From the NCBI GenBank assembly GCA_905233895.1, contig CAJOFL010000001.1:1-64000 (forward strand): a DNA stretch of 64,000 nucleotides, given 5' to 3'. Below, piece after piece: positions 20,981 to 29,220 of the stretch (its first letter is position 1; every line of letters starts with the position of its first letter). The notes beneath the pieces were generated by a model, which was given only the letters and a program-made list of their open reading frames with translations, did not search any database and was not told where the DNA came from. The stretch is from an uncultured Bacteroidales bacterium (GTDB lineage: Bacteria; Bacteroidota; Bacteroidia; Bacteroidales; P3). The position numbers were made by a program, and so were the translations under genes.

Positions 20981-20995
20981 TATTCACCTCACTTG

Positions 20996-21077
20996 TGCGG
21001 ATAGGGGGGCTCGAACCCCCACCCCTTGCGGGACAAGATCCTAAGTCTTGCGCGGCTGCCAATTACGCCATATCCGC
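20996..21077 (-). tRNA. tRNA-Leu (anticodon UAG)
   Basis: The minus strand folds with acceptor GCGGATA/TATCCGC, anticodon stem CAAGA/TCTTG with loop CTTAGGA (anticodon TAG, reading CUA), a long variable arm (TCCCGCAAGGGG) as expected for class II Leu tRNAs, and T arm GGGGTTCGAGCCCC. Discriminator A73 is present and CCA is not encoded. Confidence 0.95.
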
Positions 21078-21093
21078 GTGGTCGAAACAAATT

Positions 21094-21102
21094 GCAAAAA
21101 TA
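21094..21102 (-). promoter_or_regulatory. -7 box of tRNA-Leu
   Basis: TATTTTTGC on the minus strand, 16 bases upstream of the tRNA. The -33 position is T-rich but not a clear TTTG. Confidence 0.55.
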
Positions 21103-21133
21103 CACACTTTTTTTCACATACACGAAAAAAAAA

Positions 21134-21161
21134 CACCTGCCACCTAATTCCTGGTGCCTAA
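21134..21161. repeat. Degenerate heptamer array at the 3' end of msrA
   Basis: Four 7-base units (CACCTGC, CACCTAA, TTCCTGG, TGCCTAA) span the msrA stop codon. They resemble the other heptamer arrays of the window (48132-48156, 56094-56128, 56307-56341). Confidence 0.45.
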
Positions 21162-21659
21162 CTTCTTGGCCATCAAGAACAACCCTTCGGGTATATGGCA
21201 GTAGCCGCCCGGGTGTTTCTCCAGGTAGTCCTGATGGTATTCGTCGGCAGGGTGGAACACCTCGAGGGGCTCCACCTCTACAGCCACTGGGCTCGAGTAG
21301 CCCTGCTGTACCCGTCGGCGCGCCTCCAGGGCCGTCAGCCGGTCGGCCGGGTCCACATAATAGATGCCCGTACGGTAGCGTGTGCCTTCGTCCTCGCCCT
21401 GCCGGTTCACCGACGTGGGGTCGATACAAAGGAAATAGAGTTCCAGCAGGCGCTCGAGCTGTAGCCGCTCAGGGTCGTATTCCACCATTACCGCCTCGGC
21501 GTAGCCTGTCCGGTCGGTATACACCTCCTCGTAAGTCACCGCCTGCGGTTCATTACCGTTTGCGAACCCAGTCACCGTGCGCACCACCCCCGGAATCTGC
21601 TTCAGGTAGTGCTGCGCACCCCAGAAACATCCCGCTGCCAGATATATAGTCTTCGTCAT
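21144..21659 (-). CDS. msrA: Peptide-methionine (S)-S-oxide reductase
   Basis: A 171-residue MsrA that repairs S-methionine sulfoxide in proteins. The active-site motif AAGCFWGAQHYL is at residues 8-19, with the catalytic Cys in GCFWG. EEVYTDRTGYAEAVMVEYDP and the C-terminal HPADEYHQDYLEKHPGGYC are further hallmarks. The length matches the core domain; there is no MsrB fusion. It begins 9 bases after the last gene of the RyR/ART operon and may be transcribed with it. The stop codon lies within a degenerate heptamer array (21134-21161), so the last residues may derive from the repeat. Confidence 0.95.
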   Translation of the reverse strand: MTKTIYLAAGCFWGAQHYLKQIPGVVRTVTGFANGNEPQAVTYEEVYTDRTGYAEAVMVEYDPERLQLERLLELYFLCIDPTSVNRQGEDEGTRYRTGIYYVDPADRLTALEARRRVQQGYSSPVAVEVEPLEVFHPADEYHQDYLEKHPGGYCHIPEGLFLMAKKLGTRN

Positions 21660-21668
21660 GATTACAGA

Positions 21669-22217
21669 TTATTTTTCGATTTGCATGATAGTGTCAGTTG
21701 TGTCGCGGACGCTATCGCCGGCAGGAGCAGGTGGATTGGCCAGGCTGTGTATTCCCAGGCTGGGCGGTAAAGTCGGTTGGGGATAAAAATGTAGCGTCAG
21801 AATGCGTTCAGCATGACTTTTTTTCATTGGCCTTTTGGAAGAGCAGGGGAATCCCCCCAATACAACCTCGTCGGAACACGTGACGTAGATGCATACCTTC
21901 GCAAATGTTCCCGTCTTTTCCCGGCTTATGGTTATTTTGTAGGGGGCTGTTTTGTTGCCGCAATCGATAGTGGAAAAATTAAGTTGCCCCGTTACTTCCA
22001 CTTGATTGTCGTTGATTCTTGTTACTTGGTCAATGGTCATGGGCACATAGGCTGGATTGAAAGTGCCGTCTTGACTCAAGATAAAAGACCTTAAAGGTCC
22101 GGCGATTAAAGGCTTGATACCGTTTTTCTCGTCCTCAGAAAGATCAATGACGGTCTGGGCTGTTGCGAATGTGGATATGAGGAAGAGAATGGCCAGTATG
22201 CTTGCTTTTCTTTTCAT
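21669..22217 (-). CDS. Small secreted protein at the end of the RyR/ART operon
   Basis: A 182-residue protein with signal peptide (about 1-20, ending FATAQ). It has three Cys residues in the middle (TIDCGNK, YVTCSDE, GFPCSSK) and a Pro-rich tail. I do not recognise the family. It overlaps the Rossmann-RyR gene by four bases (ATGA), so it belongs to the same translational chain; it could be an envelope-side partner of the module, which is inference from context only. Confidence 0.6.
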   Translation of the reverse strand: MKRKASILAILFLISTFATAQTVIDLSEDEKNGIKPLIAGPLRSFILSQDGTFNPAYVPMTIDQVTRINDNQVEVTGQLNFSTIDCGNKTAPYKITISREKTGTFAKVCIYVTCSDEVVLGGFPCSSKRPMKKSHAERILTLHFYPQPTLPPSLGIHSLANPPAPAGDSVRDTTDTIMQIEK

Positions 22218-23353
22218 TTGATGTTTTGATTTCTGATTTTGTTCAGTTTGCCTAAGATAACGGGAATGGCGAGTATCATGAAGCTGTCGTATTTCAGACC
22301 GTCGGGGCTGATGCGGCGAAGTTCAGCGTAAGAACACAGGCAGATGTGGGTGGGGTCCTCAGCATTGTTTTTCAGAGAATTGCGGTAGGTCTTCTTCAAG
22401 TCGCCGAAAGTGCGTTCGTCGCGGATTAGTTCAGCATTGGTTGGTGTGCGGTAGCCCATTATAAGCCGTTCTGCAATCCAGCGTGAATGTTCGCATTTGG
22501 AGAGAGCTTCGATGCAATCGTCCCAGTGTTCGCTGTGTTGGTAGTTCTTTCCGCAGTATTGAATCATAGTGCGGTATCTGGCCTCGAATGTGTCGGAACA
22601 GAATATGTTGGAGATGTCTCCCTTGACTTTTAAGGGGTTGTTAAGCCAGGTGGATTCGTCGACAAGGGGCATGATTGTTTTGCCCAGCAGGTTGTATTTG
22701 AAGCTGTCCATGGCCATCCCGTACCGGTGAGTGGAGTGGATGTTTTCGGCGGGAAGGTTTTCGATGGTTACTCCCAGGTTGTATATCCTGCTGGAAAGCA
22801 CGGCTTTGCGTGTGTCGATGCTGAAGATTTTTTCTGCCTCGCAAGTGTTGGCATACGAGATGACCTCCTTTTCGGTTATCGTTATGGTGTCAGGTGTTGA
22901 CGAAGGTTGCCAGTCGCGTACTATCTCCAGCTCGATGTCGATAAAGGAGTCGCTGTTTGTGACCTGTCCGTCGATTGTGTATTTGCAGTGGTCGATCAGG
23001 TTGCACAGGTATTCCTCGGCGTGGAGGGCCTGTATGATGTCGTTGCGATTGCTGACGATGGTTACTACAGTGCGGTTGCGGTGCGACGGGTTGCCATAAA
23101 CGTTGGTCTCCTCGTAGTTCGCGAAGTGGGCATAAAGAGCCAGTTGGCGCACGACGGAGAGCATCAGGGGAGAGTCGCCCATGACGACGGCGTGGAGATG
23201 GCTGTTTGAGTCGATGCCGATGAGGGTGTCGTTCAGCTTGTCGAGGATATAGGCGCGGGAAATGTACCAGTTTTTTACGGTCTCGGCAGGGAAGTTGCTG
23301 CCGTCTTTCCTGGTGAGGTATTCGAAGGGTTTCTCCAACTGTGGCTTTTTCAT
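22214..23353 (-). CDS. Rossmann-like (TrkA-N-type) protein with C-terminal RyR-like domain
   Basis: Start at 23353 (MKKPQLEKPFEYLTRKDGSN) because it overlaps the upstream stop as ATGA; the longer ORF runs into the previous gene. Of 379 residues, about 50-230 look like a nucleotide-binding Rossmann region (LHAVVMGDSPLMLSVVRQLA, then TVVTIVSNRNDI). Residues 283-345 carry LSKCEHSRWIAERLIMGYR (Glu288, His289, Arg291, Trp292), the core EHxRWxAE of prokaryotic RyR-related domains that follow TrkA-N-like folds. RyR domains in bacteria have been proposed to bind nucleotide-derived ligands. No membrane segment is obvious, so it is probably a cytosolic sensor for the channel encoded just upstream. Confidence 0.7.
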   Translation of the reverse strand: MKKPQLEKPFEYLTRKDGSNFPAETVKNWYISRAYILDKLNDTLIGIDSNSHLHAVVMGDSPLMLSVVRQLALYAHFANYEETNVYGNPSHRNRTVVTIVSNRNDIIQALHAEEYLCNLIDHCKYTIDGQVTNSDSFIDIELEIVRDWQPSSTPDTITITEKEVISYANTCEAEKIFSIDTRKAVLSSRIYNLGVTIENLPAENIHSTHRYGMAMDSFKYNLLGKTIMPLVDESTWLNNPLKVKGDISNIFCSDTFEARYRTMIQYCGKNYQHSEHWDDCIEALSKCEHSRWIAERLIMGYRTPTNAELIRDERTFGDLKKTYRNSLKNNAEDPTHICLCSYAELRRISPDGLKYDSFMILAIPVILGKLNKIRNQNIK

Positions 23354-24396
23354 ATTTCTGTATTTTGGTCGGTGCTGGAGTCGTCGTCGCTGGACATTTT
23401 CTGGAAGAGACGCAGGTTGAACCAGGCGAGCGAATTGATGATGTGTTCGATGATTTGCGACTGTTGCCACTCGAAGGCTTGGAGGCCGCTATCCATGATG
23501 TAGGCGTAGATTTGGAGTTGCAGACCCCATTCCACATGGTCGAGCCACCTGACTGTCAGGAATGGCCGCTGCGAGACGTGCGGGTGCCCCATCATCCAGT
23601 GGTAGAGGTAGATGCGATAGAGTTTGGCGTTGAGTTCGCCTTCTTTTATTTCCTCTTCCGGAAGGTAGCGGAAGTCGACATGGCTTTTGATTTGTTCGGC
23701 TTCGTTGGCCGAGATGGGGTGAAAGCACGTGGTGTCGAGTACGAGGGTTTTGAGCATCCGCCGGCCATAAGTGTTGCCGTTCATCATGTTCTGGAAGTTG
23801 ATGAAATGGTCGGAATGCAGTGCATTTATGGGTATGGTGGATGTGGTGGTATCCCAGTTGTAGATGGTCACCGTGGTGAGTGTCACGCGGGTGACGGTTC
23901 CGTCGACATCGTATTTAGGCACCTGTATCCAGTCGTCGATGGAGAGCAGGTGGTGGCTGCGCAGGTGGATGAATGCCAGCACACCTTTGACTTTATCTTG
24001 GAAAATCCACGCCAGCAGTGTGCCGATGATGCCAAGGGCGATGTAGTAGTGGGAGTCGGATTTGATGTCGAAGATGATGAGGAATGCCAGTATCCAGATA
24101 CCTATGACGATGAGGATGGAAATCTGGCACCATGTGATGTGGGTCTCTTGCCTGCGGAGATTGAAGATGTTGGTGAGAGTCTGGCACGTTGTCGAGGTGA
24201 GGATGACTAAGAGTGTGATACTTGCAATCCACAGCACTTGGCGCAATGCCCATTCATACTGGGTGAGGAGGGCCAGCGCCATAAGGGCCAGCATGCACAG
24301 CATCAGCCATCTGGATTTCAGCAGTGCTCCGAGAATCTGGATGCCAAGGGTGTTGGAGGCAAGCCACCGGCTGCTTAGTGATTTGATTGGGTTCAT
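23350..24396 (-). CDS. MscS-family mechanosensitive-type ion channel
   Basis: I prefer the start at 24396 (MNPIKSLSSRWLASNTLG), which overlaps the RyR stop as ATGA; the ATG at 24417 is an alternative. The 348-residue protein has about four to five membrane helices between 28 and 165, then the beta domain of MscS proteins: DDWIQVPKYDVDGTVTRVTL and VTIYNWDTTTSTIPINAL, close to the YbdG/YnaI subgroup. Residues to the end form a cytoplasmic vestibule. MscS channels release solutes; in an operon with nucleotide-sensor domains it may be ligand-gated and act as an effector, which is inference. Confidence 0.85.
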   Translation of the reverse strand: MNPIKSLSSRWLASNTLGIQILGALLKSRWLMLCMLALMALALLTQYEWALRQVLWIASITLLVILTSTTCQTLTNIFNLRRQETHITWCQISILIVIGIWILAFLIIFDIKSDSHYYIALGIIGTLLAWIFQDKVKGVLAFIHLRSHHLLSIDDWIQVPKYDVDGTVTRVTLTTVTIYNWDTTTSTIPINALHSDHFINFQNMMNGNTYGRRMLKTLVLDTTCFHPISANEAEQIKSHVDFRYLPEEEIKEGELNAKLYRIYLYHWMMGHPHVSQRPFLTVRWLDHVEWGLQLQIYAYIMDSGLQAFEWQQSQIIEHIINSLAWFNLRLFQKMSSDDDSSTDQNTEI

Positions 24397-24686
24397 GGCT
24401 TTTTTTCTATTGTCCATCCAAGTTTCAGGATGAGTTTCAGGGTTTGTATGGCGGTGTCGCGGTCATAAGCCTTCTCGCTCTCGGGAAGGTCGCCGTAGTC
24501 GACAAGGCATGGGTTGGTCTTCGCCTGATCGTCGCGCGCGGGGCCGTAGGTCCAGCCGTCGTTGAGCCGTCCGGCGGCCCATACGTCATGAACGTTCCGC
24601 GCCATTTCCTCGGTCAGTTCCTCCAGCTCTTTTGTCAGGACGATATCTGAGGTGTCGATAGGGGAGGGTGTGTATTCGCCGGTCAT
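24393..24686 (-). CDS. Stand-alone RyR domain protein
   Basis: A 97-residue protein that is nearly all one ryanodine-receptor repeat domain. The pattern is clear: LTEEMARNVHDVWAAGRLND, then GWTYGPARDDQAKTNPCLVD and LPESEKAYDRDTA, with His33, Trp36, Arg40, Trp45, Pro59, Glu71 and Asp75 in the expected places. Eukaryotic RyR domains sit in calcium-release channels; free bacterial ones occur in predicted signalling and conflict operons. It overlaps the MscS gene by four bases, which suggests it makes one complex with the channel. Confidence 0.85.
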   Translation of the reverse strand: MTGEYTPSPIDTSDIVLTKELEELTEEMARNVHDVWAAGRLNDGWTYGPARDDQAKTNPCLVDYGDLPESEKAYDRDTAIQTLKLILKLGWTIEKKP

Positions 24687-24699
24687 GTTGTCGTGGGGA

Positions 24700-26136
24700 T
24701 TAGTTGTTGTTGAGGTACTGGTCCATGTAGACGATGACGCGCTCGTTGTCGCGGGGGAGTTTGTCGTGTTTGATGATATTGCCGAACTCGGGGTTGATTT
24801 GCTTGAGTAGGGTGGTCATCTTGCCGGGTATCTGGTAACAGGTACCGTTGTCGGTGTTGTAGCCGGCGAAGTAGAGGTAGATGGGCTTGCTGATGGCGGT
24901 ACCGTCCTCGCGGGTTATGGAGATGGCGCGGCAATCGCCGGATTTGTAGACTTCTTTCGCCACGTAGTAGCGGCTGCCGAACATGATGTATGGCGTTTCG
25001 TCTTTGCGTATCTTGCTTTTGGGGGTCTGGTCGGAGAACCGTTCTATCTGGTTGCCGAGCGTGGATTTCGAGATGTCCACCCCGTAAGGCTCCAGGAATC
25101 GTCTGTAGTAGGTCAGTGTTCCGCTGCCTTCGTCGGTGGTGTAGAGCGCGATGTTGGTTCCGGTTACGTCGCGTATGAATGATGCCAGTTCGCGCGTTGT
25201 TATGCTGGTCTTGCCGTCAATGATGGGGTTCTGGTAGTTTTTCTTCACGTAGATTGTCAGGGTGTCCTCACCTAGGTGTAAGCCGAGCACTGAGCATTTG
25301 CTTGTGAACTGCTCTTTGTTGGCCATCATCAGGAAGTCCTCATCGGTGGCCTCCATGGCCGAGAGGGCGATGGGGTAGAAACGCTTGCCGTTGTCGTTGC
25401 TGCGGAGTGCGTGCTGGTGTAGGAATTCGCCCGAGATTATGGGCCATGAGGCTTTGGTGGGCACGGGGAGGTTGATGGCGTCGTCCAGGAAATGGCTTTC
25501 GCGGACTCCTTCGTATTCTGTCAGGCAGTTCAATGCCGAGCCGCCGCCGACGAGAAGCATCGTGACGTCGTTCTTGCCCACCAGTGCGAACAGCAGCAAT
25601 ATGATGGCCATGATTGATGCTATGAGACCTATCCGTAGTCCGCGAATTTTTTTCTTGGGCGACTGGCTGGAGTTCCCCTCGAGCTTGTCAATCTCCTGGT
25701 TGAGGCGTTCCTTGACCTTGGTCTCAAGGTCCTCGAGGTTGGAATATTCGATGTAGTAAGAGTCGCAGTGTTCGTTGACGAGCTGCTCGACTTCTCTGAT
25801 TTCGTCAGTTTTTGTCTCGTGCTCTTTCAGGAACACGTACATGCGCGGGGTTCCGGTCTTACGGAATGATTTCGAGGCGAGTATGAATTCGTCGCGGGTC
25901 TTGTCACCGATTCGGTCTTCGATGATGTAGAGCACGATGTCGGCCTGGTTCTCGATGAAGTCGTTGTAGTCGGCCTGGTTGTCGCCGAGGTTCATGTAGG
26001 AGAACATGTTCAGCGATATTTTCTTGCCCTTCAGACGGTTCTCGGCGTTCATGTTGTTGGCCAGTGCCTTGAGCCGCATTCGGTGTTCGCGGAGGCGTTT
26101 GGCGCCGGAGACGAATATTGTTATTGATGTTTTCAT
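24700..26136 (-). CDS. TIR-like domain – transmembrane helix – PstS-like binding-protein fusion
   Basis: A 478-residue three-part protein. Residues 1-150 form an alpha/beta domain (TSITIFVSGAKRLREHRM, then QADIVLYIIEDRIGDKTRDE and PRMYVFLKEHE) that resembles TIR-like or nucleoside-deoxyribosyltransferase-like folds; Glu83 follows the DRIGDKTRDE turn. A membrane helix spans about 167-187. Residues 190-478 look like a type 2 periplasmic binding protein (LLVGGGSALNCLTEY, TTDEGSGTLTYYRRFLEPYG, YLYFAGYNTDN), similar to the phosphate-binding PstS type. The topology would sense a ligand outside and pass it to a cytosolic domain that may act on NAD+. The first domain assignment is tentative. Confidence 0.65.
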   Translation of the reverse strand: MKTSITIFVSGAKRLREHRMRLKALANNMNAENRLKGKKISLNMFSYMNLGDNQADYNDFIENQADIVLYIIEDRIGDKTRDEFILASKSFRKTGTPRMYVFLKEHETKTDEIREVEQLVNEHCDSYYIEYSNLEDLETKVKERLNQEIDKLEGNSSQSPKKKIRGLRIGLIASIMAIILLLFALVGKNDVTMLLVGGGSALNCLTEYEGVRESHFLDDAINLPVPTKASWPIISGEFLHQHALRSNDNGKRFYPIALSAMEATDEDFLMMANKEQFTSKCSVLGLHLGEDTLTIYVKKNYQNPIIDGKTSITTRELASFIRDVTGTNIALYTTDEGSGTLTYYRRFLEPYGVDISKSTLGNQIERFSDQTPKSKIRKDETPYIMFGSRYYVAKEVYKSGDCRAISITREDGTAISKPIYLYFAGYNTDNGTCYQIPGKMTTLLKQINPEFGNIIKHDKLPRDNERVIVYMDQYLNNN

Positions 26137-26138
26137 TT

Positions 26139-27188
26139 TTATGATGTTTCTTGTTTGAAAGTTCTCGCTAAATCACTCAGAACCATTTTGTTGAAGAGCC
26201 AGTGCGACATGCCGCCGCTAATGCGGTGGACGTGTATGTCGCCGAGTTCCTCGATGTAGAGCGGGCGGATGCGCCAGCTGTAGTTGTAGCGGTTCTTCCA
26301 GTCGTACATGCAGTATTCCCACCATTCGCGGCTTTTTCGCCACCACTCGCCGGTGGTAAATCCGTTCTTGAGGCCCCATTCGGTGGCGAGGTGGGCGTTG
26401 GCGTGGCCGCAACTGTCGAACACGGCCTTGGGCGCCATGCCGAGGTCGAGCACTTTGCCCAGCGACACGCGGCATACGATGATGGCTTTCTGGTCGTAGC
26501 CCCGTGCGTAGTGCTCGGCCGTACTCCTGATGGGCGCGAAATAGATGCCGTCGCCGGCCCAGTTGCCCTTGCCTACCATCCAGACACCCGAGGCGTTGCT
26601 GTCGTCCTTGATGCGGTTGGGGCATTTGGTGATGCTTTCGCTGGCGTTGTAGTTGGTGCCATGGTAGAGAGTCAGGGCCGGCACGAAGGTGTCGATTACC
26701 GTCCAGACAATGCTCTCAACTAGCGTTTGGAGTAAGTGCCACGTGTATTTTAACAATCGCCAGGGCAGCAGCAGTACCCAAAGGAAGATGTTTTTGCCGC
26801 CTTCGCCTTTGGCTGAGGGGTCCAGAACTTCAGCAATGTAGTTGAAGAGTTCAAACCCCAGGTGCACTATGATGTTGTAAAATGCGGCGTTGACGAGTCG
26901 CAACGGGGTTAGTGCCACATAGAGAGGAACCTTCATTATTGTCCAGAAGCCTCGGCGGAAATGGTTGAAGCCGTCCGATCCGCTGTGTCCTTTGAAGAAT
27001 ATTCGCCAGGGTTTGGCCAGGAAGCGCTGGAACCAGTTGAGTATACTGAATGGGAAACAAAGTATCCTGAATAGGATGTAGAAGGTGCGGTTTAGCGTCT
27101 TTACACCCCACCGGAGGATGATTCTCAACAGGTAGGCTCCGCCAATGCCCAGCAGGGCATACAGGATATACTGTACGATTGGAGCCAC
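26139..27188 (-). CDS. Membrane-anchored PARP-like ADP-ribosyltransferase
   Basis: A 349-residue protein. The first 170 residues hold several hydrophobic segments (about 3-25, 35-55, 85-115, 133-170) that should tether it to the membrane. From 172 on the PARP-type ART fold is recognisable: LYHGTNYNASESI with His176, GDGIYFAPIRSTAEHYARG with Tyr216 and Tyr227, then AIIVCRVSLGKVLDLG, which matches the strand after the catalytic loop in PARPs. The last strand (RIRPLYIEELGDI) has Leu310 where poly-ADP-ribosylating enzymes have Glu, which would fit a mono-transferase (H-Y-hydrophobic). Target unknown. It starts one base after the stop of the upstream small protein gene and is followed two bases later by the TIR-like fusion gene. 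Confidence 0.7.
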   Translation of the reverse strand: MAPIVQYILYALLGIGGAYLLRIILRWGVKTLNRTFYILFRILCFPFSILNWFQRFLAKPWRIFFKGHSGSDGFNHFRRGFWTIMKVPLYVALTPLRLVNAAFYNIIVHLGFELFNYIAEVLDPSAKGEGGKNIFLWVLLLPWRLLKYTWHLLQTLVESIVWTVIDTFVPALTLYHGTNYNASESITKCPNRIKDDSNASGVWMVGKGNWAGDGIYFAPIRSTAEHYARGYDQKAIIVCRVSLGKVLDLGMAPKAVFDSCGHANAHLATEWGLKNGFTTGEWWRKSREWWEYCMYDWKNRYNYSWRIRPLYIEELGDIHVHRISGGMSHWLFNKMVLSDLARTFKQETS

Positions 27189-27189
27189 G

Positions 27190-27417
27190 TCAATCTATGT
27201 AGATAACGATTCGACCGGCTATTTCGCCGTGGTGGACGCTGCGGCCGCCGATGTAGATGTCGCCTCGGCCGTTGTCTTCGGTGAAATGGGCTTCGCCCAT
27301 AGAGTCGGTGTACTGGTCGCGGGCGCATCCGCGGAAGAGGCCTTCGAATATGACGGACACTTTCTTGTCCTTGACGGGCTTGCCGTCGCGACGGCTGACT
27401 ACTTTTACTGTGAACAT
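27190..27417 (-). CDS. Small beta-sandwich protein, first gene of the RyR/ART operon
   Basis: Start at 27417 (MFTVKVVSRRDGKPVKDKKV), downstream of the promoter at 27465; an ATG at 27507 lies upstream of that promoter. The 75-residue product looks like one transthyretin or carboxypeptidase-regulatory-like beta-sandwich: VKVVSRRDGKPV, then TDSMGEAHFTEDNGRGDIYI and GEIAGRIVIYID. No signal peptide, so it is probably cytosolic. It may be a small adaptor or sensor of the module; its role is not known. Confidence 0.65.
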   Translation of the reverse strand: MFTVKVVSRRDGKPVKDKKVSVIFEGLFRGCARDQYTDSMGEAHFTEDNGRGDIYIGGRSVHHGEIAGRIVIYID

Positions 27418-27464: not shown

Positions 27465-27496
27465 GCAAAATTACAAAATTTTTATTAAACGGCAAA
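27465..27496 (-). promoter_or_regulatory. Promoter of the RyR/ART operon
   Basis: On the minus strand TTTG, 19 bases, TAATTTTGC: a complete -33/-7 pair 47 bases upstream of the first start. No other comparable site is seen inside the operon. Confidence 0.75.
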
Positions 27497-27819: not shown

Positions 27820-29220
27820 ATGAAAAACAAGTATTACGACTTGATTGAACAGACGTTTGATTTTCCGCAGGACGAATTCCGGACTGAGGAAGGGGAGTTG
27901 TATTTCCATGACATTCCCTTGATGGAAATTATCAAACAGTACGGCACTCCGTTGAAGGTGACATACTTGCCTAAGATTAGCCAGCAGATTCAACGGGCGA
28001 AGCGTCTGTTCAACGTGGCTATAGCCAAGACCGATTACCGTGGTACATATAATTATTGCTACTGTACAAAGAGCAGCCATTTCGCTTTTGTGCTGGAGGA
28101 GGCGCTGAAGAACGACATTAATCTCGAGACGTCGTCTGCGTTCGATATCAACCTGATTCAGGAACTGCATGCCCAGGGCTTGGTGGATAAGGAAAAGGTT
28201 GTGGTGTGCAACGGCTTCAAGAAAGAGCAGTATATCGAGAATATTGTTGGTTTGTTTAACGACGGTTTCCGTAATGTGATTCCTGTTTTGGACAACAAGA
28301 ATGAGTTCGCGACGCTTGACCGTGCGCTGGGTGATGCGGCTGAGCCGATGCTGTTGGGCATCCGCATCGCCGCCGAGGAGGAGCCGAAGTTTGACTTTTA
28401 CACTTCGAGGCTCGGCATCCGTTATCACGATATCGTGAGTTTCTACGAGGAGCAGGTGAAGGCGAACCGTAGGTTCCGATTCAAGATGCTGCATTTCTTT
28501 ATCAATACAGGCATCCGCGACACGGCCTATTACTGGAACGAGTTGTCGAAGTGCGTCAATGTTTACTGTGACCTGAAGCGTGTTTGCCCCGAGCTGGATT
28601 CGCTCAATATCGGTGGCGGTTTCCCATGCAAGGTGAGCCTGGCGGCCAACTACGACTATGAGTACATGGCCGAGGAGATTCTGGCCCAGATAAAAAATAT
28701 CTGTGCGTTGCGGGGTGTGGAGGAACCGAATATCTTCACAGAGTTCGGCAGTTTCACGGTGGGTGAGAGCGGTGCCACTCTATATAGTATCCTTGACCAG
28801 AAGCAGCAGAACGACCGCGAGTTGTGGTATATGATTGACTCGAGTTTTATCACCACTCTGCCAGATACTTGGGGTATTAACCAGAGGTTTATCATGCTTC
28901 CCATCAACCACTGGGATAGCGAGTACCAGCGGGTGTTCCTCGGTGGATTGACTTGCGATTCAGAGGATTACTACAATGCCGACAGCCACGCCAACGCCAT
29001 TTTCCTCCCGAAACTACAGAAGGACGACCCGTTGTATATCGGTTTCTTCCATACTGGTGCCTATCAAGAGTCGATTGGCGGCTACGGCGGTATTCAGCAC
29101 TGTCTGATTCCCGCTCCGAAACATGTGATTATCGACCGCGACGTGGACGGCGAGTACACGACGAAACTTTTCGCCAAGGAGCAGAGCTATAAGTCGATGC
29201 TGAAGATTCTGGGATACTGA
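27820..29220 (+). CDS. PLP-dependent decarboxylase, probable arginine decarboxylase
   Basis: A 466-residue fold-type III (alanine-racemase-like) decarboxylase. The N-terminal barrel carries YNYCYCTKSSHFAF with Lys84 as likely PLP lysine, LNIGGGFP as the phosphate-binding glycine loop, and TEFGSFTVGESG. The C-terminal beta domain has FLGGLTCDSEDYY, matching the GPxCxSxD active-site pattern. Close relatives in Bacteroidetes are annotated as arginine decarboxylase, the first step of agmatine/polyamine synthesis; other diamine-precursor substrates in this family cannot be excluded. It is a single gene on the plus strand, abutting the convergent C25 protease. Confidence 0.75.
   Translation: MKNKYYDLIEQTFDFPQDEFRTEEGELYFHDIPLMEIIKQYGTPLKVTYLPKISQQIQRAKRLFNVAIAKTDYRGTYNYCYCTKSSHFAFVLEEALKNDINLETSSAFDINLIQELHAQGLVDKEKVVVCNGFKKEQYIENIVGLFNDGFRNVIPVLDNKNEFATLDRALGDAAEPMLLGIRIAAEEEPKFDFYTSRLGIRYHDIVSFYEEQVKANRRFRFKMLHFFINTGIRDTAYYWNELSKCVNVYCDLKRVCPELDSLNIGGGFPCKVSLAANYDYEYMAEEILAQIKNICALRGVEEPNIFTEFGSFTVGESGATLYSILDQKQQNDRELWYMIDSSFITTLPDTWGINQRFIMLPINHWDSEYQRVFLGGLTCDSEDYYNADSHANAIFLPKLQKDDPLYIGFFHTGAYQESIGGYGGIQHCLIPAPKHVIIDRDVDGEYTTKLFAKEQSYKSMLKILGY

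Follow-up and report, generated by a model that had tools for sequence, protein, structure and literature searches.

A Bacteroidales operon with an MscS-type channel, RyR domains and NAD-directed domains as a candidate nucleotide-gated membrane effector

Seven consecutive minus-strand genes (27417 to 21669) on contig CAJOFL010000001.1 of an uncultured, gut-type Bacteroidales bacterium (assembly GCA_905233895.1), whose first 64,000 nucleotides were analysed and are called the window here, bring together an ADP-ribosyltransferase (ART), a TIR-like protein, ryanodine receptor (RyR) domains and an MscS-type channel, which raises the question of whether such pieces belong together and what they could do in the cell. 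An original prediction, made from the sequence of the window, had taken them for a linked membrane signalling or defence operon. The comparison of related loci demonstrated that the conserved centre is the pair formed by the MscS channel and the sixth gene, g6, and not the seven-gene set. As for function, the operon is tentatively read, with slightly less than even confidence, as a nucleotide-gated membrane effector, in which an NAD-derived nucleotide would gate the channel via RyR domains, following a Thoeris-like logic. All seven genes are complete as open reading frames (ORFs) read from the window sequence and are numbered as follows:

27190..27417, minus strand: g1, small protein of 75 residues (ORF; sub-threshold Pfam matches only)
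26139..27188, minus strand: g2, PARP-like ADP-ribosyltransferase of 349 residues, with a GTG start and a hydrophobic N-terminal half (PF00644)
24700..26136, minus strand: g3, 478 residues, with a TIR-like part (1 to about 155), a hydrophobic segment (169-187) and a putative C-terminal binding-protein domain
24393..24686, minus strand: g4, free RyR domain of 97 residues (PF02026)
23350..24417 (or from 24396), minus strand: g5, MscS-type channel (PF00924)
22214..23353, minus strand: g6, 379 residues, Rossmann domain and divergent RyR-like C-terminus (intermediate profiles and a structure model)
21669..22217, minus strand: g7, small protein of 182 residues with a hydrophobic N-terminal segment at 6-24 (ORF)

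The conservation of this neighbourhood was evaluated by scanning genome contigs with a profile of the g6 family, which recovered 37 loci; after G061 and G026 were added and three duplicates removed (L045 and L069, which share their contigs with L024 and L025, and L048, from the L047 genome with the same ORF coordinates), 36 loci remained, forming 32 groups at 90% identity. These loci were labelled as Bacteroidales, Bacteroidia, Bacteroidaceae or Prevotella-type metagenome-assembled genomes, with the exceptions of L068 (‘Bacterium’) and L071 (‘Clostridiales’, a fragment). An MscS gene adjoins g6 in 30 of the 32 groups, and at L057 and L071 the contig edge is reached at that point. Within 8 kb of g6, a TIR gene was found in 23/32 groups, a free RyR gene in 13/32 and either of them in 25/32, the TIR profile behind these counts having been trained on 13 TIR domains from the same loci and the independent check being provided by Pfam TIR_2. 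The TIR_2 background, measured over the whole genomes behind 36 of the 37 loci with the matches near g6 counted, amounts to 88 matches in 90.7 Mb, or 0.016 per 16 kb.

The same association was verified from the RyR side with Pfam models over whole genomes. Of 393 genomes of the order, 37 had a match to the RyR family PF02026, compared with none of 14 control genomes. Among the strongest 32 of 50 RyR places, located in 26 of these 37 genomes, TIR_2 was found within 10 kb at 15 places and in 12 genomes, while 0.5 genomes would be expected if placement were uniform (P about 1.6e-15 under that assumption). Taken together with the MscS and TIR counts near g6, this proximity led us to reject chance clustering. 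Additionally, a protein with a g6-type C-terminus lies within 5 kb in 18/26 RyR loci and a TIR gene, sought with the profile trained on the 13 TIR domains, within 8 kb in 12/26, neither being nearby in two (L113 and L123); of the 18, seven had given training sequences, L134 duplicates L033, itself used in training, and ten had given none.

Although RyR, channel and NAD-directed pieces therefore belong together, as had been predicted, they do not travel as one conserved unit of seven genes, a possibility that was rejected because only L050 approaches the full set. In this locus, g1, ART, RyR, MscS and g6 are found together, with TIR genes where g3 would be, and in L115 a g3 relative accompanies RyR, TIR and an RCK-type protein. 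While the linkages of MscS with g6 and of RyR with TIR held across loci, ART and g3 also occur apart from the remainder, as observed in L077 and L078 for the former and in L026 for the latter. This could mean that two or three independent modules, g1-g2, g3 and g4-g6, meet at a variable site, where they would be co-transcribed and functionally unlinked. In fact, no RyR or TIR match was found within about 9 kb on each side of the ART relatives of L077 and L078, the g3 architecture of L026 stands away from RyR, and upstream of msrA, the gene that follows g7 in the window, the operon is missing from L135, L136 and L138, the three same-genus genomes showing at least 8 kb of DNA there (six same-genus msrA loci were fetched, and the other three contigs stop within 725 bases upstream of msrA). 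On the other hand, such unlinked modules are hard to reconcile with L050, which unites g1, g2, RyR, MscS, g6 and TIR, with L115 and with the tight gene junctions of the window, where gaps of 1, 2 and 13 bases from g1 to g4 are followed by three 4-base overlaps, that between g4 and g5 assuming that g5 starts at 24396 and not at the alternative 24417. The order of the genes and the junction sizes agree with those first predicted, and a purely modular assembly is considered improbable.

Among the products, the free RyR domain g4 is the most clearly assigned: it matches PF02026 over the whole domain (1.6e-35, 121.6 bits, cut-off 27.4), bearing out its first label, and directly matches the animal receptors RyR1-3 in the PDB. 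Burroughs and colleagues are said to have proposed in 2015 that RyR domains are nucleotide sensors. According to a 2026 report on phage proteins, 3'-cyclic ADP-ribose (3'cADPR) is contacted in the phage protein RyDEP by H75, W78, H100 and D117, and 2'/3'cADPR is bound by six of eight tested phage RyR homologues (PMC13232231). In g4, H33, W36, N58 and D75 are spaced like these four residues, and in a set of 45 RyR sequences the H, W and D positions are kept in 45/45, the third position being H in 33, T in 6, N in 5 and D in 1. The corresponding H289, W292 and D356 are kept in all of 30 g6-type sequences, and H336 in 28. As judged from the alignments, therefore, the 3'cADPR-binding residues of the phage protein are largely conserved here. 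Such conservation could also be expected if g4 were a signal terminator, hydrolysing or sequestering cADPR-type signals as RyDEP does and so guarding the host from its own TIR or ART, with the channel answering another cue, since the catalytic H75 and D117 of RyDEP correspond to H33 and D75 of g4, both invariant in the 45 sequences. However, the same report states that the eight tested phage homologues besides the founding RyDEP do not cleave the signal despite high conservation (PMC13232231), and the channel-side RyR-like domain of the g6 type bears the same residues; this alternative as a whole is given a low probability.

The phage RyDEP and RyR proteins thus share with the present ones the H-W-(H/N)-D ligand set, but they counter defence, whereas the RyR and RyR-like domains described here are bacterial, adjoin channel-type proteins or form part of them, and often have TIR genes nearby. 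RyR-like matches were found in 176 phage records, two of these spanning 80% of g4. MT836850.1:1153-1431 and MT837259.1:934-1209, both faecal ‘Bacteriophage sp.’, each encode an RyR domain that shares about 60% identity with g4 along almost the entire length of the latter, unlike the other phage RyR matches listed, and represent either phage capture or bacterial contamination. No g4 relative was found in viral contigs by a peptide-pattern search. A further group of proteins of about 310-360 residues carries RyR at the C-terminus (L025:9661-10668 on the minus strand, L064:11678-12616, L050:15868-16848, L126:8871-9959, L127:2020-3108 and L128:8535-9536). Below threshold, that of L050 matches the anti-sigma-type zf-HC2 and RseA_N as well as peptidase C39, and that of L025 adjoins a gene (L025:10675-11367, minus strand) with a sub-threshold match to sigma-70 region 4, possibly pointing to RyR control of transcription.

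The channel itself was confirmed as MscS-type, g5 matching the MscS beta-domain PF00924 (7.8e-10, 39.2 bits, cut-off 20.2) and carrying three hydrophobic segments. Bacterial cyclic-nucleotide-gated MscS channels (bCNG) exist, and the idea of a ligand-gated MscS is common to both, whereas no cyclic-nucleotide-binding domain was detected in g5 with Pfam at E up to 1. The description of g6 as a Rossmann protein with an RyR-like end was supported by an indirect route: its C-terminus has no PF02026 match above the Pfam cut-off, while intermediate profiles and a structure model support the relationship. In a set of 5948 ORFs, a profile of g6-type C-termini built with no free RyR domain included matched 46 of the 48 short RyR ORFs (E up to 0.01); apart from ORFs labelled as RyR or g6, it matched only 11 large neighbours, all in RyR loci. 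The 14-member C-terminal profile does include L109 and L125, which themselves match RyR, the former over the cut-off and the latter below it. Additionally, the best structural match of the g6 model (VIA) was Repeat12 of human RyR3, with a low Z. When a profile of the g6 C-terminus was compared directly with one of RyR, the result (P 0.14) was not better than those of the controls and is unusable; Foldseek returned no match for the g6 model at E up to 0.001, and a PDB sequence search with the g6 profile returned nothing relevant. Compared with the animal ryanodine receptor, to which g4 is related through RyR1-3 and g6 through RyR3 Repeat12, the present proteins have 97 or 379 residues instead of about 5000, and the pore differs.

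The connection between RyR-like ends and channels was also observed on single chains. A profile of eight fused proteins was matched by PDB entries at both ends, by an RyR1 chimera at the C-terminus (1.7e-6) and, weakly, by GsuK (4gx0, 0.0061), DMI1 (0.01) and MthK (0.21) at the N-terminus. The 629-residue protein of L115 matches Slo-like_RCK above the cut-off, those of L033, L034, L120, L121 and L122 match it below the cut-off, and most fused relatives have at least two N-terminal hydrophobic segments, none being present in the 518-residue protein of L043. Because of these matches and segments, the fused relatives look like RCK-type channels bearing an RyR-like end. They resemble the RCK channels GsuK, DMI1/POLLUX and MthK weakly over the transmembrane and RCK parts and differ from them in that C-terminus. 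The window instead combines an MscS pore with a regulator made as a separate chain, and g5 appears to replace the pore and the first RCK, leaving g6 as the remaining regulator.

Such an architecture could also serve metabolism or osmotic adjustment instead of immunity. MscS channels are classically osmotic, and the Rossmann and RyR-like domains might read NAD(H), ADP or ADP-ribose and tune MscS under stress, with TIR and ART neighbours merely drawing on the same ligand pool. A study on GsuK describes this RCK channel as opened by ADP and NAD+ (PMC3510474). In agreement with such a role, 9/32 groups with the MscS and g6 pair have no TIR within 8 kb, and there is no compositional sign of recent import, because operon and window have the same GC content (52.7 versus 52.8%). 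However, g6 is patchy: it was matched in 14 of 98 other genomes near that of the window, near full length in only two, and in a sample of 395 genomes of the phylum only in the window's own genome. Moreover, the TIR, STAND, CHAT and NACHT partners found nearby are of the kinds usually seen in conflict systems. A channel serving metabolism or osmotic adjustment is viewed as unlikely.

Among these partners, which lie within the operons or next to them, are TIR_2 combined with FGE, Sel1 or NACHT (some of the TIR_2 matches being below the cut-off), nSTAND1 and CHAT. A SIR2_2 and TIR_2 fusion (L054:11418-12803) and a Macro and TIR_2 fusion (L049:11122-12213) both stand beside an MscS and g6 pair. 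One Glu column is kept in 13/13 aligned partner TIR domains, the alignment having been read by eye, and PADLOC gave TIR-type matches for nine of ten tested partner proteins, with weak ThsB matches among them for six. In L050 (953-7776), three consecutive TIR proteins of 455, 864 and 917 residues lie upstream of RyR, MscS and g6, and two of them match the PADLOC model HEAT-ARM_XIII. The occurrence of channel-part relatives beside immune-type TIR genes suggests bacterial channel control by NAD-derived signals. The logic of an NAD-derived cyclic nucleotide and the TIR genes near most relatives recall Thoeris, while the output differs, since it consists here of a channel, of the MscS or RCK type, associated with RyR-like domains. 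Indeed, neither ThsA nor ThsB was identified in the window locus, none of the seven operon proteins being matched in PADLOC; NCBIfam likewise gave nothing above its cut-off for them, and Pfam nothing above its own for g1, g3, g6 and g7. The first impression that no named system has this set was upheld by PADLOC and by the literature searched, where no RyR, channel and TIR system was described among the matches listed.

In the window, the NAD-directed part would fall to g3 and possibly g2. The label of g3 as a TIR-like, transmembrane and PstS-like fusion was sustained unevenly. The protein has a single strong hydrophobic segment, and its N-terminus is plausibly TIR-like: the AlphaFold2 model of residues 1-165 that scored highest among five (mean pLDDT 72.2, against 56.9 to 45.2 for the other four) has a TIR domain as its top VIA row, tied with GTPases, the relative in L026 matches TIR_2 barely over the cut-off (28.6 versus 28), and E83 is invariant across six aligned sequences. 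On the other hand, g3 itself matches neither TIR_2 nor TIR in Pfam, and the window overall has no TIR_2 match; Foldseek gave a pilin (7ba2) as its only match at E up to 0.001, flavodoxins and TIR domains ranking lower, and the profile-profile comparison with TIR (probability 15%, P 0.0018) was judged unusable. PDB sequence searches with g3 profiles returned nothing relevant, and no g3 relative was found in plasmids. The PstS-like part was not established, since the C-terminus matches no binding-protein family (PstS/PBP) in Pfam or the PDB and the label rests on a motif. The DUF4062/Swarozyc proteins are presented as TIR-like NADases in a published account (PMC13174449). The wider family of the g3 N-terminus keeps a Glu, and two of its proteins, in L027 and L028, match DUF4062 below the cut-off, whereas g3 itself does not match it in Pfam; membership of g3 in DUF4062 was rejected on that basis.

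For g2, the PARP-like ART label was confirmed with a narrow margin (PF00644, 1.9e-6, 28.0 bits, cut-off 26.7). Its H176, Y216 and E291 are invariant in an alignment of three sequences, g2 and two relatives, and by eye we take them to be the H-Y-E catalytic residues of PARP1. In L077 (9116-10463, minus strand), the ART relative is spread over two overlapping reading frames, which represents either a broken gene or an assembly error.

In the nucleotide-gated effector that we tentatively favour, an NAD-directed enzyme, once triggered, would make an ADP-ribose-type nucleotide; a TIR protein encoded nearby would fill this role in most relatives, whereas in the window it would fall to the TIR-like domain of g3, perhaps together with the ART g2. 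The nucleotide would bind the RyR-like C-terminus of g6, and g5 would be opened via the Rossmann part of g6, while the free RyR g4 may help binding or limit the signal by sequestration or hydrolysis. In relatives, the equivalent output would be carried on one chain by an RCK-type channel with a second Rossmann domain and the RyR-like end. The likely purpose would be a stress or antiphage response through ion flux. What we infer from these comparisons is which ligand is used, how the channel is gated, what g2 and g3 do as enzymes and that the operon serves defence. The initial proposal that an external ligand is read by a binding protein would be at best a variant of this genome, because only L050 nearly shares the set and the g3 architecture is sporadic, occurring near RyR in L115 and away from it in L026; the proposed order from ART and TIR-like domain to channel is likewise conjectural.

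A broader and more doubtful possibility is that these proteins belong to a bacterial channel family gated by cADPR-type signals via RyR domains. It would come in two builds, RCK fused to an RyR-like domain and MscS with a detached Rossmann-RyR regulator, and would be served by exchangeable NAD enzymes (TIR, SIR2-TIR, Macro-TIR and PARP-like ART). Direct action of cADPR on ryanodine-receptor channels is a long-standing controversy, and such a family, if real, would represent a prokaryotic parallel, perhaps a source, of cADPR control of the animal receptors. Channels with RyR sensors would then join the outputs of NAD-based bacterial signalling, and the small size of the bacterial proteins makes RyR-based nucleotide gating accessible to experiments on soluble proteins, in liposomes and in E. 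coli. The 2026 phage report raises the link between cADPR and the ryanodine receptor, the binding of 2'/3'cADPR by phage RyR domains being described there not on a channel (PMC13232231).

With regard to the small genes at both ends of the operon, a g1 relative 61% identical adjoins ART in L050, and the beta-sandwich fold first assigned to g1 was not established, given that Pfam offered only sub-threshold DUF4198/bMG3 matches. The product of g7 is probably secreted; it matches no family above the Pfam cut-off, and its profile found no match across the fetched loci. Two features flank the seven genes:

27466..27496, minus strand: putative promoter read from sequence, TTTG (27496-27493), 19 bases and TAATTTTG (27473-27466)
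21144..21659, minus strand: msrA, an ordinary methionine sulfoxide reductase outside the system (PF01625, 2.7e-54)

The arrangement TTTG-N19-TAATTTTG is what we take to be the Bacteroidales promoter consensus. At the other end, the transcript may continue past g7, because msrA begins 9 bases after it, and tRNA-Leu comes next. The distribution of the operon is patchy, with no proven island: the gene at 27820-29220 is unmatched in L135, L136 and L138, so that no clean insertion boundary is seen. The site upstream of msrA is possibly variable, and msrA and tRNA-Leu(tag) (window 20995-21659) stay together in five of the six same-genus genomes.

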